Positions 8,665 to 64,000 of a stretch of 64,000 nucleotides of DNA are shown one piece after another (the stretch's first letter is position 1; the number at the start of each line of letters is the position of its first letter). The stretch covers positions 558,001-622,000 of the forward strand of contig JAVTLE010000014.1 in NCBI GenBank assembly GCA_033439295.1, written 5' to 3'. This stretch comes from Deuterostichococcus epilithicus. Lineage: Eukaryota > Chlorophyta > Trebouxiophyceae > Prasiolales > Stichococcaceae. The notes beneath the pieces are model-generated. The model did not search any database. It was not told the origin of the DNA and saw only the letters and a list, made by a program, of their open reading frames with translations. A program made the translations under genes and the position numbers.

Positions 8665-11600
8665 ATGGACTTCTCGGAGCAGGAGGCCGTTGATGGTGTG
8701 CGCTTTGTCTGGAACGTGTGGCCAGGCAGCCGCCTGGATGCAGGCCGCCTGGTGGTGCCGCTCGCCGTTGCGGTGAGTCATGGTGCTTATTCTCAACTTC
8801 GATGTCAGCGCGCACGTGCAGCTGCCTCGAGCGCCGGTGCACGCCCTGCTGCTCACCCTTTGTGGTGGTTCCCCTCTGCCTGCGAGCGCCAACCCATTGA
8901 TCATCAGGTACGCCGTGGGGACTAGCAGTCCCCTGCGGCAGCTGCAATTCCTATACTTCCCACGTGGGAATCTGCCGTTGCCTCGAGTTCGCAGAAGGAT
9001 CGGTCACAGCAAGTGCTCTGAGCATCTGTGGCCCACGCAAGCGCTTCGCTGCTGTAGGTCACGCCGCTGAAACGAGTGGAGAATGCGCCGGTGCTGGCAT
9101 ACGAGCCGGCCGCCTGCCGCACATGCCCCTGCCTGCTGAACCCCTACTGCCGAGTGGACTTTGGCGCCAAGGCCTGGTTCTGCCCCCTATGGTGCGCCCG
9201 CCTCGGTATGGAGCGAGTGGCTTGTGCACATTCTGGGACTACCGAACGATCCGCCTCGTGAAGCGCACCACACCATGCAGCCTCCCGCCACGTTGTGACA
9301 TTGCTGGTAGCGTCCCGCAGCCGCCTGCTTTGTCCAAGGCTGCCCGTCGTGGGCACCCGCCTTGCCTGCTGACCCTCGCGCCTGCCTCCCATGACAGACA
9401 CCCCCGACACCTGCTTCTCGCAAGCACGCGTCCCATGACGCCCGCCCCCTGATGCCCGCCGCCCATGCTGCGCGCAGCCGAGGCCGCAACGCCTTCCCGC
9501 CGCGCTACGCCCAGGTCTCCGAAAACATGCTGCCGGCGGAGCTGTATGCGGGCTACACCGTCGTCGAGTATGCGCCGCCGCTACCGCCGCACGCGCCGCC
9601 ACCGGCGCCGCCTGCCTTTGTGTTCCTGCTGGACCTGGCCCTGGAGCCGACGGAGGTCGAGGTGCCTAATACAACTGGCCGCCGGACCGCGTTCCGAAAT
9701 CTTGATAAGGATTGGAATTCTTGGGTTGCAGAAAGCACTATTATGGGCTTCACATATCGCTGGCCTGGCTGCGGCTCTCGACTCTGTGGTTAGCGGCACG
9801 AGTGTCTGCTGCTGGCGGCACCCTCGCTGGAGGTGGCCCTTGGCACGCTAGGCACCGCCTGCCCGCAGGCACATCACGAGAACCCCGGGAAGCTTGGCAG
9901 CGGTCGCAAGGGGGCTGGTCGAGGCGGCCGACCCTAGTCCCCCATGCATGCAGCTTCGATTTTGGACTTCAGGGCCTGTGTGCGGCTGAGTGGCCCTGTG
10001 GATCCAGCAGCAGATGGTGCTCCGCCAGCCACGCGTGGCAACGCTTCCGCCCAGTCAAGCGAGGGCCACCATCGCTGCACAGGGGCTGCGGGCGGCGGTG
10101 CAGCAGGCGCTGCAGCTGGTGCCTGAAACGGCACTGGTCGGCCTCGTCACTTTTGGCGCGCACGTCCACGGTGCGCCGCTGGCCAATGCGTCGCTTCAAT
10201 TGCAAAGCCGCAAGCACATGCAATTGTCCAAATTGGAAGTTGAAGCAAGACGGGGATCGCCTTGACTTGCCGCTGTGCGAGGACCTGCCCATGACCCAAC
10301 CTCGGCGGAGCGGGTTGCTGGGGAGACGCCTGAGGCAGACAGCTGTGTGCGGCGGAAACGGTTGTGTTGTCGGTACAGGTGCTCATTCCAGCTGCTGGCA
10401 GTGCACGAGCAAGGGCACACAGCCAGAGCCGGACGTGCTGCGCAGTCAAAACATTGCAGTGATCCAGCATGGGCAGCACTCGAGCGGGTAAGCGTTCCGA
10501 CTGCCCGCAGTACACGAGCTGGGGCACACGGAGATGCCCAAAGCGGTGGTGCTGCGCGGGGACCGGGACTATGACGCCGCTGCCATCGCCTCGATGCTGG
10601 GCCTCGGGCTTGGCTCCGGCCAGAGGTGAGGCTCTGGGCCGGACATCCCGGCAGTTTGCGTGGCACTGCATCAGCAGCAGCAGCCCGCGCGGGCGGGGTG
10701 GCGAGCGCTGCCGCCGGTACTGCACCGCAAGCCAAGTCGGCACAGCGCAATGCAGCTGGACGTGCCCAGTCAATCAGTGGCACCGCGCTAGAGTGCGCCA
10801 GGCAGGCGAATGGTGCTGCAGGGGCCTAGTTGCTGCCCAAAATGCGATGATCTATTTGGGCATGGCGTCAGACGGTTTCTGGGATGACTGCAGGTGGGGC
10901 GCCGCGCCGCCAGGACGGCCGCCGGGGCCGGGCAGCGCGCCAAACGGCATGGCAGTGGCGGGCGGGGCGTCACGGGCCGGCGTCGACCGCTTCCTGCTTC
11001 CGCTGGCAGACGCGGACTTTGCGCTCGACAGCCTCATTGACGACCTGCAGGTGACTCTTCCGCAGGAGCGATAAATATATTGCTGTCTTGTGCATGTCAA
11101 TGATTGTATGCAGGGAGGACATCTGCAAAGGCACTGCAATGTCATGGTGTGCAAGCATGCGCAGACGCCTTTCAAAGTCACATTTGTTGCAGACCAACAT
11201 GGCTGCAGGAAGACCGCCGAACCTGTCTGTGCTGCACTGACGCTGTGCGCTTGCCATGACGCTTCCAGGCCGGGCACACATTCTGGTCCGGGCGAGCCCG
11301 TTCCTCCCTGCGCAGGCGGACTCGTGGCCGCCGCCGCGGGGGCTGCGCCCGGCGCGCTGCACCGGCACGGCGGTGTCCGTGGCCACAGGGCTGCTCGAGG
11401 CGGCCTCGGCGGCGGCACACGGCGGCGCCGGCGGCCGCATCCTGCTGCTGCCCGGCGGCCCGGCCACGGTCGGGCCGGGGCAGATCGTGTCGCGGGACCT
11501 GGGCGACTCCATCCGCACGCACAAGGCACGTTCCTGGCAGCCGACATGTCTTCGGTGCCTGGCAAAGCTGTGCAAGTGCAAGTGCAAAAAGAAACTGTGC

Positions 11601-62000: not shown

Positions 62001-64000
62001 AGCTGGGGTTGCCGCGTCAGGCGGGGGATGGCGTCGGCGCTGGCCCACGACCTCATTCAAGCCAGAAACATGCTCTGCTGAGTTCCGTAGGCCCACCTGT
62101 ATGAGCCACACGACGTTGTCGGAGTACAGGTGGTGCTGGCAGATCCAGGCGGCCAGGATGTCCCACTCCACGCGCTTGCGGCCGTAGATGCTGATGCGCA
62201 GCTCCGCGTGCTGGTACTTGCTCGCCTGCGGGCGGGATTAGCTTTCAGTAGCAGTGAACATCTGTCGACTATGCAGCGGCGCGGGCGGCAAACACTGGCG
62301 GAGTGGTGTGCAGGGTGTGCAGACCAGCCTGAGAGGGCACACAGAACAGGAGCAGTGCGAGCTTGGCGATTGACAATAGAGGATGGCCAGGCCTGCCGGG
62401 TGTGTGCGCCGGCAGGCGGTTGCTGGCGAGACCGCAAAAGTCAGGGGCAATAGAACTGATCTAGGCAAGGCGCACCTCCAGGTCGGCCACCACCTCCTGC
62501 GTCAGCTCCGCCAGGAAGCGCCCGTGGATGATGTTATCCTGCGCACGAATGCGATATCAGTGTCCGGTGTGTTGGGGCCTGGCAGCCTCACCAGCACTTT
62601 GCATTTATTCATTTCAGCTCTCCCACAGGAACACAGCCCCTGTGACGCCGGCACGCCACCAGCTGCTCTCAGTGCGGAGCGGCTGCGCGTCAAAGAAACT
62701 GTGCCTCGGGGCAATCCTCAGGCAAGCTTCACTCACGGCGCGCGGACGCCGCACCTGCTTGATGAAGATCTCGCGCAGGCGAGACTGGCCGCACGGGTTG
62801 TACTTGAGGTTGAATTTGTCGAAGCGGTGGAAGATGTTCTTGTCCGCATGCATGTCCAGTGTGTCCACATTCAGGTCGTGCCTGCAGAGAGTTCGAAGCA
62901 AAAACGTTCCAGCACATCATCAATCAGCACGGCGGCTTGGAGGACGGAGCACAGAAGTTCAGGTCGCAGCTGGGCGCAGAGGCCGGAGGGGCGCTGCTCG
63001 CGGATGTCCGCCCCGCGCTGCCACGGACACGGCTGGAGCTGGGTCCGTCGACAGCAATGCACGGGGCGCAGTTTGCAAGCATGCCGACGGCCAGGGGGCA
63101 TCGTGTGTGCTGCAAGGCGCACCCAGTCATCTGCAGCGACTCGAAGACCTCTGCCAGCGTGAGGAATTTGCCGTCGCGGAAAATGACCACCTGCACAGGT
63201 GCCCAGTGCCAATCGTTGCGAGCGTTTTAATAGGACTGAAACCATCGAGCTCGCAGCTGCTACTTTATGAAGGAGCACGACCCGCAGCAATGCAGGATGG
63301 ACGCCGACGCCGCCCAAACTCGCTGGTTGGTGGGCGCTGCTTTCGTGGACGAGCAAGGCGACACAGCACTGCGCGATATACAGCGGCAGATGTCAAGACT
63401 GGATGATCACTGCTGCTTGCACACTCTTGAACAAGCAGAGCAACAAAAGCAGCAGTAGGTCACCTGGTCCGGCTCCTTGCGCAGCTTGGACTTGATGAAG
63501 CGCAGCAGGTGCTTCTGGTGCATGCACGCCGAGTGGTGGATGTGCGTGTCCACCTGCACATGGTTGAGAAAGAAACCTGAGAACAGGGGGAGGAGAGACA
63601 GCAGATGCTTAGTGCCGCTGGACCTTGCCATAGTCCAGGGCGCATAGCCAGCGGGCGCTGCAGCGGCGCTGGCTTGCCAGGGAGCGCGGCGCGGCGCCTG
63701 CAGCGCAGTGCAGCGCCAGCCTCCGCCGGCACCTGCGCCGACAGGCATTGACGGCACCCAGAGGGATGCAGTCGGCTGTCTTGACGACCGGAACTGGTCC
63801 ACAATCAGCAAGCAGTCGACCCTATGCCTGTGCCGGGCTTTTCCGCCTTCTGCACCTTGCGGACGTTGTAGAAGTCGCGGTGCGGCGCTGACTTCTGGGC
63901 CAGGAACTCCTTGTCGGCGTTCATCATGACGTGCAGGTTGAACTTCTGCTCCAGCAGCAGCAGGCGGTGGAAGCAGAAGCTGCGCACGGCGCCCATCGAC
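59093..64000 (-). CDS. AMPD: AMP deaminase, N-terminal part beyond the window
   Basis: It deaminates AMP to IMP in the purine nucleotide cycle. Twelve exons are seen: 63856-64000 (continues right), 63464-63553, 63123-63190, 62755-62881, 62476-62538, 62097-62225, 61614-61754, 60949-61150, 60350-60465, 59802-59975, 59475-59549 and 59093-59275, all phased, with TGA at 59093-59095. Zinc and catalytic motifs are present: [41 protein letters not shown] and [19 protein letters not shown]. Other family blocks are [32 protein letters not shown] and [11 protein letters not shown]. The catalytic domain is complete; the variable N-terminus (in plants a membrane anchor and regulatory segment) lies outside. 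The exons ending at 59802 and starting at 61150 and 61754 have degenerate copies in adjoining introns. Confidence 0.97.
59674..59740 (-). repeat. degenerate copy of the donor end of the AMP deaminase exon at 59802-59975
   Basis: In sense it reads aaggagctgcttgtcggaaa then gtactctatcgcggcgcag|gt. That parallels the exon end aaggagccgctggtcgaaga then gtactccgtcgcggcgcag|gt. It lies in the downstream intron and keeps a donor GT. Confidence 0.88.
61208..61250 (-). repeat. degenerate copy of the start of the AMP deaminase exon at 60949-61150
   Basis: It reads [11 protein letters not shown] against the exon's [11 protein letters not shown], with a CGCAG acceptor. It lies in the upstream intron. 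Confidence 0.88.
61266..61303. repeat. small (ATGGGAT)-type minisatellite
   Basis: Repeated gggat/gggatat units over about 38 bases in an AMP deaminase intron. Confidence 0.7.
61846..61895 (-). repeat. degenerate copy of the start of the AMP deaminase exon at 61614-61754
   Basis: It reads [14 protein letters not shown] against [20 protein letters not shown] in the exon, with an internal deletion of about six codons. It lies in the upstream intron. Confidence 0.85.

Follow-up and report, generated by a model that had tools for sequence, protein, structure and literature searches.

Introns of three genes of Deuterostichococcus epilithicus carry old copies of neighboring exon edges, which suggests intron growth by repeated local copying at splice sites

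Results

Many introns of three genes in a 64,000-nucleotide stretch of the genome of the green alga Deuterostichococcus epilithicus (GenBank assembly GCA_033439295.1, contig JAVTLE010000014.1, positions 558,001 to 622,000; hereafter, the window) contain old and damaged copies of a neighboring exon's edge, which suggests that these introns have grown by repeated local copying at splice sites. The copy set is real and far above chance: its members are specific for exon edges, lie on the strand of their parent, keep similar spacings and have decayed without coding constraint. The main surprise is that the homology nearly stops at the splice junction. Intron-rich genes identify the window (G+C about 0.61) as eukaryotic nuclear DNA, and the three genes concerned are the following.

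8665..16239, plus strand: SEC23 gene, 17 exons; introns 4, 11 and 13 carry acceptor-type copies
21533..48926, minus strand: acetyl-CoA carboxylase (ACC) gene, 49 exons used
59097..63996, minus strand: AMP deaminase (AMPD) gene, 12 exons, as far as the window extends

Introns were taken from five gene models, predicted ab initio after training on the window itself (87 introns: SEC23, 16; ACC, 48; AMPD, 11; an FGGY gene, 8; an unnamed gene, 4). Their ends are GT-AG in 84 introns and GC-AG in 3, and the median lengths are 307 bp for introns and 132.5 bp for exons. The SEC23 model, from which two predicted exons derived from copies were omitted, aligns along its length to human Sec23A (E 1.8e-200), and the AMPD model gives an ungapped alignment with Arabidopsis AMP deaminase (E 1.3e-259), which has the best score among the PDB matches; for ACC, alignment to yeast ACC1 covers the biotin carboxylase/BCCP and carboxyltransferase parts. 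In SEC23, AMPD and both catalytic parts of ACC, the alignment to solved homologues runs across the exon joints. The ACC exon 46440-46339 was added to the ab initio model. The FGGY gene, the unnamed gene and the central ACC exons, the latter modeled without a homology check, are less certain. An ACC intron also holds a CTG/GCT microsatellite (38087-38170), where the ab initio model calls a poly-leucine exon.

Excess of exon-edge copies

Comparison of the window with itself at a threshold of at least 40 bits revealed nine same-strand repeats lying less than 500 bp apart, while opposite-strand repeats never came closer than 16 kb. For each intron, match scores were obtained for the downstream exon's head and the upstream exon's tail and compared with those of control exons and reverse complements. 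The intron's own exon head outscored every control head in 13 of the 87 introns, and the own tail outscored every control tail in 7, with about 1 expected in each case; the reverse complements yielded 0/87 for both heads and tails. Against 100 dinucleotide shuffles, p≤0.01 was reached by 16/87 heads and 8/87 tails, or 22/87 introns overall, which belong to ACC (13/48), AMPD (5/11) and SEC23 (4/16). Four of them (SEC23 intron 8, AMPD intron 2, ACC introns 15 and 42) hold weak or interior matches. In 2000 permutations of the partners, the observed means were never attained. Thus, the excess stands against shuffled introns and nonadjacent exons, the controls proposed in a preliminary description of this DNA: own exons match far better than unrelated ones. 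That description had also placed the copies on the same strand and close to their parent, in agreement with what we see.

Chance similarity, low complexity or an assembly artifact could be invoked for a GC-rich window with some simple repeats, among them a CTG run matched at low score, yet this explanation is hardly credible, since the reverse-complement, nonadjacent-exon, shuffle and permutation controls refute chance for the whole set (single weak copies may still be chance) and identities of 66 to 85% appear too diverged for assembly duplicates.

Detailed alignments were made for introns with rank p≤0.035, retaining at most five alignments per side. Copies were accepted at a score of at least 36 (acceptor type, exon head) or at least 34 (donor type, exon tail), with the copied edge lying at most 12 bp into the exon. 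These cutoffs dropped the tail match of SEC23 intron 8; AMPD intron 2 (tail), intron 6 and intron 7 (second match); the tail match of FGGY intron 8; and, in ACC, matches in introns 9 (third), 10 (third), 15, 21 (two simple repeats), 24 (second), 35 (tail), 42 (tail) and 46. Twenty acceptor-type copies in 13 introns and five donor-type copies passed. AMPD intron 6 was reexamined later: gapped alignment reveals an exon-head copy with an 18-bp deletion, the least substituted of all, which was added as copy 61892 and brings the acceptor-type introns to 14. This matches the roughly fourteen boundaries first proposed for these genes, whereas the two donor-type copies claimed there have become five at the present cutoff. 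Exons adjoining 12 of the 14 acceptor-type introns are homology checked, the exceptions being ACC introns 20 and 21; the donor-type cases in ACC introns 23 and 24 adjoin exons modeled without such a check (marked "unchecked" below). Several copies within one intron are not independent tests. The copies are listed with their identity to the parent.

10386..10443, plus strand: copy of the head of SEC23 exon 5, 47/64 identical
13778..13813, plus strand: copy 1 of the head of SEC23 exon 12, 27/36
13900..13954, plus strand: copy 2 of the head of SEC23 exon 12, 47/55
14004..14038, plus strand: copy 3 of the head of SEC23 exon 12, 32/41
14098..14133, plus strand: copy 4 of the head of SEC23 exon 12, 29/36
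14924..14969, plus strand: copy 1 of the head of SEC23 exon 14, 35/46
15011..15067, plus strand: copy 2 of the head of SEC23 exon 14 (copy 15024), 46/60; clearest intron-side homology, z 4.1
61853..61892, minus strand: copy 61892, head of AMPD exon 7 (intron 6), 28/29 over the core; 18-bp deletion, no AG
61210..61254, minus strand: copy of the head of AMPD exon 8, 37/45
60792..60840, minus strand: donor-type copy of the tail of AMPD exon 8, 36/49; GT lost
59677..59740, minus strand: donor-type copy of the tail of AMPD exon 10, 53/64; GT retained
47212..47268, minus strand: copy of the head of the ACC exon at 47140, 43/58
44467..44522, minus strand: copy of the head of the ACC exon at 44410, 39/56
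44777..44807, minus strand: second copy of the head of the ACC exon at 44410, 25/31
43540..43588, minus strand: copy of the head of the ACC exon at 43489, 40/49
43654..43687, minus strand: second copy of the head of the ACC exon at 43489, 29/34
42547..42604, minus strand: copy of the head of the ACC exon at 42464, 47/61, three 1-bp gaps
38553..38613, minus strand: copy of the head of the ACC exon at 38494 (unchecked), 50/61
37564..37633, minus strand: copy of the head of the ACC exon at 37485 (unchecked), 50/71
37738..37802, minus strand: second copy of the head of the ACC exon at 37485 (unchecked), 46/65
36879..36917, minus strand: donor-type copy of the tail of the ACC exon ending at 36980 (unchecked), 28/39
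36300..36357, minus strand: donor-type copy of the tail of the ACC exon ending at 36488 (unchecked), 41/58
29260..29325, minus strand: copy of the head of the ACC exon at 29177, 44/67
28487..28545, minus strand: copy of the head of the ACC exon at 28424, 45/59
25025..25097, minus strand: donor-type copy of the tail of the ACC exon ending at 25157, 52/73; stops 6 bp before the junction
24071..24160, minus strand: copy of the head of the ACC exon at 23996, 64/90

Geometry and decay of the copies

The position of the copies was tested with exons of at least 120 bp (55 upstream and 54 downstream introns). Own heads scored best in 10/55 upstream introns (mean z 1.97) and in 0/54 downstream introns, and own tails in 5/54 downstream introns (z 0.82) and 1/55 upstream introns. 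Stretches of exon interior were best in 1/55 upstream and 2/54 downstream introns; the stretch between 120 and 60 bases upstream of the exon end, which overlaps the head in short exons, also scores upstream (4/55, z 0.89). These same-strand edge copies, with heads upstream, tails downstream and interiors rare, follow the pattern that arises from the geometry of boundary-crossing duplication. Consecutive spacings fall between 92 and 151 bp in 19 of 20 cases. Introns with acceptor-type copies (n=13) exceed the remaining 74 in length (median 576 versus 294.5 bp; p=0.0008), which fits growth by copying.

The 20 acceptor-type copies have kept 66 to 85% identity to their parents. Identity at codon positions 1, 2 and 3 is 0.82, 0.79 and 0.73 (25 copies), a profile expected when the copy changes freely while the parent adds synonymous changes. 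Half of the 20 acceptor-type copies have alignment gaps, and in 6 of the 20 the exon part has gaps not divisible by three. In 9 of 10 copy-copy pairs, drawn from five introns, the two members resemble each other less than either resembles the parent, as for independent decay; the exception is 14007 with 14109. Together, the codon profile, the gaps and the independent drift indicate that the copies behave as untranslated relics. Ancient conserved copies are rejected as a sole answer, because third codon positions are still 73% identical and the copies drift independently.

Homology at the splice junction

Anchoring the alignments at the junction gave homology reaching about 50 bases into the exon with a mean z of 13.45 and an intron-side mean z of 0.41, with 3/20 copies at p≤0.05. 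The intron-side signal varies with the method: global alignment of neighboring units gave a mean z of 0.65 (3/20 at p≤0.05) and a Stouffer sum of 2.9, a sum that ranges from 1.3 to 3.1 depending on the scheme and is driven largely by SEC23 introns 11 and 13, and another test gave a mean z of 0.16. In a gap-tolerant test, copy 15024 is a clear exception to the lack of signal, and copy 44508 reaches z 1.9. Beyond CAG, the intron side of the copies on the whole matches its own parent no better than other acceptors. In the unit first described (pyrimidine tract, AG and exon head), the pyrimidine tract is not demonstrably copied, with copy 15024 as the clear exception.

Intron-only repeats are not in excess, being present in 9 of 85 introns versus 11 of 85 for the inverted control; the same-strand score is the higher one in 33/85 introns and the inverted score in 42/85. 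At the indel rate of the copies, the power to detect such repeats is 0.73 to 1.0; with heavy indels at d=0.3, it is 0.20. Among the four donor-type copies inspected, three retain GT, and their intron sides look unlike the parent's, by eye only. On average, the sequence preceding the copies shows no match to the upstream exon (mean z 0.13; maximum 2.84), and on this ground spliced mRNA is rejected as a likely template.

Acceptor sites of the copies

The copies score 6.78 on an acceptor matrix, below true acceptors (8.07; p=0.02), with 1700 other intronic AGs at -1.03; pyrimidine fractions are 0.65, 0.66 and 0.51, respectively. By exact count, AG is retained in 17 of the 19 covered copies; a figure of 20/20 is reached only if offsets of at most 3 (6 in a single copy) are allowed after inspection of the cases. 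With anchoring on the exon alone, AG is found in 12/14 copies versus about 0.2 in control alignments. Donors downstream of the copies reach the cutoff at a rate of 0.20, versus 0.26 at random intron positions; as these donors are no better than random, the copies do not look like cassette exons. Alternative, mutually exclusive and cassette exons are rejected because acceptor-type copies span 25 to 61 bp of the exon edge, 6 of the 20 have gaps there that are not divisible by three, and the donors do not exceed random ones.

Simulated duplication

We simulated the neutral duplication of an intron tail plus exon head, with indels and divergence. At the indel rate of the detected copies, this model is rejected, its intron-side homology, intron-only repeats, AG and acceptor scores all mismatching the data. 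With heavy indels (0.35 indels per substitution, mean length 5, d=0.3), simulated copies have an identity of 0.79 and an intron-side score of -9.6 (observed, -9.8), and intron-only repeats appear in 0.20 of introns. The heavy-indel model comes close to the data because detection favors copies with few indels. Neutral duplication thus fits most of the data only with very frequent indels.

Neighboring features

The unnamed gene and the FGGY-kinase gene (Pfam FGGY_C) lie at 51708-58320, and 0/12 of their introns carry boundary copies at p≤0.01 against dinucleotide shuffles. Two related exons (63.6% over 118 bp), reading EVLYRFA...YFGR, occur on the minus strand at 6907-7024 and 50121-50238, in two predicted genes separated by 43 kb; the first of these genes has an NT-C2 match. 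A predicted gene at 2638-4943 (plus strand) has a short DUF4504 match, and the sole ambiguous base (N) of the window is at 30762. An Rfam scan of the window returned nothing at gathering scores, megablast gave one short match, in plasmids, and pattern scans of viral contigs and GTDB contigs yielded no relatives of SEC23 and AMPD.

Discussion

With a probability of roughly 0.5, we explain the copies as relics of old local same-strand duplications, about 90 to 150 bp long, that crossed exon-intron boundaries. Duplication of an intron end together with an exon head would leave the message the same if splicing continued to the acceptor nearest the intact exon, and since the message is left unchanged, such a duplication could be fixed. 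The inner copy of the exon head would then be spliced out and decay as noncoding DNA. The original unit would have included the intron tail. The homology of this tail may have been lost to frequent indels and to divergence of both sides, whereas the parental exon probably stayed fixed, so that the exon-head copy would remain recognizable. No function is needed, and some copies may still act as weak acceptors. In favor of duplication are the intron-side homology, weak in aggregate and strong for copy 15024, and the precedent of the potato RdRp gene (PMC4974935). The growth of introns by boundary duplication, put forward in the preliminary description, is partly supported: it is favored by the greater length of copy-bearing introns and disfavored by the scarcity of intron-tail homology and the lack of excess of intron-only repeats, both of which whole-boundary duplication would be expected to produce.

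Several results weigh against duplication. The gap-tolerant intron-side test gives a mean z of -0.02 over 21 copies, and copy 61892, despite being the least substituted, has no intron-side homology (p 0.39 to 0.98 in nine settings). None of the other 20 acceptor-type copies exceeds 86% identity. At the indel rate seen, the neutral model predicts clear intron-side homology, unless divergence lets few copies be detected, and visible intron-only repeats in most introns having one; neither signal is observed. It also retains AG in 53 to 62% of simulated copies, versus the 17/19 observed, and yields acceptor scores of 1.9 to 3.7 versus 6.8. The heavy-indel model, for its part, detects 15% of events, which by arithmetic implies about 130 duplications in 87 introns, and predicts a lenient intron-side z of 0.79 versus the -0.02 observed. 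AG retention, which was outside that simulation, and copy 61892 are left unexplained by it.

Junction-anchored copying, a possible explanation if on the unlikely side, would place copies of exon edges in the neighboring intron with the splice junction as their starting point. It might proceed, for example, by local template switching with pyrimidine-CAG or CAG-GT microhomology or from an RNA ending at the junction. Homology does start at the junction, also in copy 61892; the acceptor-like sequence that the copies follow is no closer to the parent's than to other acceptors; intron-only repeats are not in excess; and the inspected donor-type copies mostly keep GT beside intron sides that appear unrelated. 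Such copying leaves unexplained, however, the restriction of heads to upstream introns, the predominance of tails in downstream ones and the near-absence of interior copies. Moreover, copy 15024 carries intron tail, three of the 20 copies extend beyond the junction at p≤0.05, no known mechanism has been shown to have such specificity, and spliced mRNA is an unlikely template given the sequence before the copies. In a fuller form that we find rather doubtful, junction-bounded copying would enlarge introns by repeatedly writing exon edges beside independent splice-site-like sequence, exact to the first or last base of the exon, with the decoys staying competent.

A third explanation, also raised in the preliminary description and regarded here as improbable, is that selection retains the copies as functional decoys or alternative 3' splice sites, acting on the acceptor and the exon-like head and not on the spacer. 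Their acceptor scores and pyrimidine fractions close to those of true acceptors, as well as AG retention above the neutral simulation, lend it some support. Nevertheless, the scores remain below those of true acceptors, 9 of 10 pairs drift independently, some frames are broken, only 4 of 20 spacings are multiples of three, donors after the copies are no better than random, and copy 61892 lacks AG. The 12/14 AG count could largely reflect an inherited AG, and use of the copies would presumably shift or extend the frames of essential genes. Decoy exons and regulated unproductive splice sites are splice-site-like intronic sequences near a real exon, with both splice sites present and conserved; the copies described here differ in the quality of their donors.

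The preliminary description cited no precedent for such a layout across genes; the layout itself is not new. The RdRp gene of potato contains a tandem genomic duplication across an intron-exon boundary (PMC4974935), with a same-strand adjacent duplicate of the intron 3' end and the downstream exon head, the upstream head copy being partly intronic. It is one young event in one gene, in which the intron part is clearly copied and a new intron arose from a cryptic donor in the upstream copy (PMC4974935), whereas here 22 of 87 introns are significant, and the copies are old, in some introns several, and mostly without intron-side homology. It is the density that stands out. Tandem duplication has been reviewed as a route to introns (PMC3443670), including intron creation through duplicated exon segments containing AGGT (Rogers 1989; Gao and Lynch 2009; Hellsten 2011; as cited in PMC3443670 and PMC4974935). 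Like these cases, as summarized there, our copies are internal duplicates of exon sequence spliced away with the message unchanged; unlike them, they enlarge existing introns, no new intron is seen, and they lie at exon edges, not within exons. No new intron bounded by a duplicated AGGT was found among the 87 modeled introns, which run edge to edge with the copies inside.

Introners bring about large-scale change in intron content, are found above all in lineages that evolve fast, green algae among them, and form families of similar introns across genes (PMC9860276), whereas each copy here matches its own exon. An introner-like family is also rejected because self-comparison within the 64-kb window shows no near-identical or dispersed introns. 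We found no report of many introns with exon-edge copies in the open-access literature, most subscription papers being outside that scope.

The genome paper of Chlorella variabilis may mention exon-like repeats in introns, which makes novelty uncertain on that point. To our knowledge, transposon-free gain of intron length has mostly been described in single cases. If about a fifth of the introns of a genome carry datable exon-edge copies, such growth could be counted and dated there, and the genome would show whether duplicated acceptors go on competing with real ones. Were the abrupt start at the junction to hold genome-wide, it would indicate a copying process not predicted by plain duplication models.

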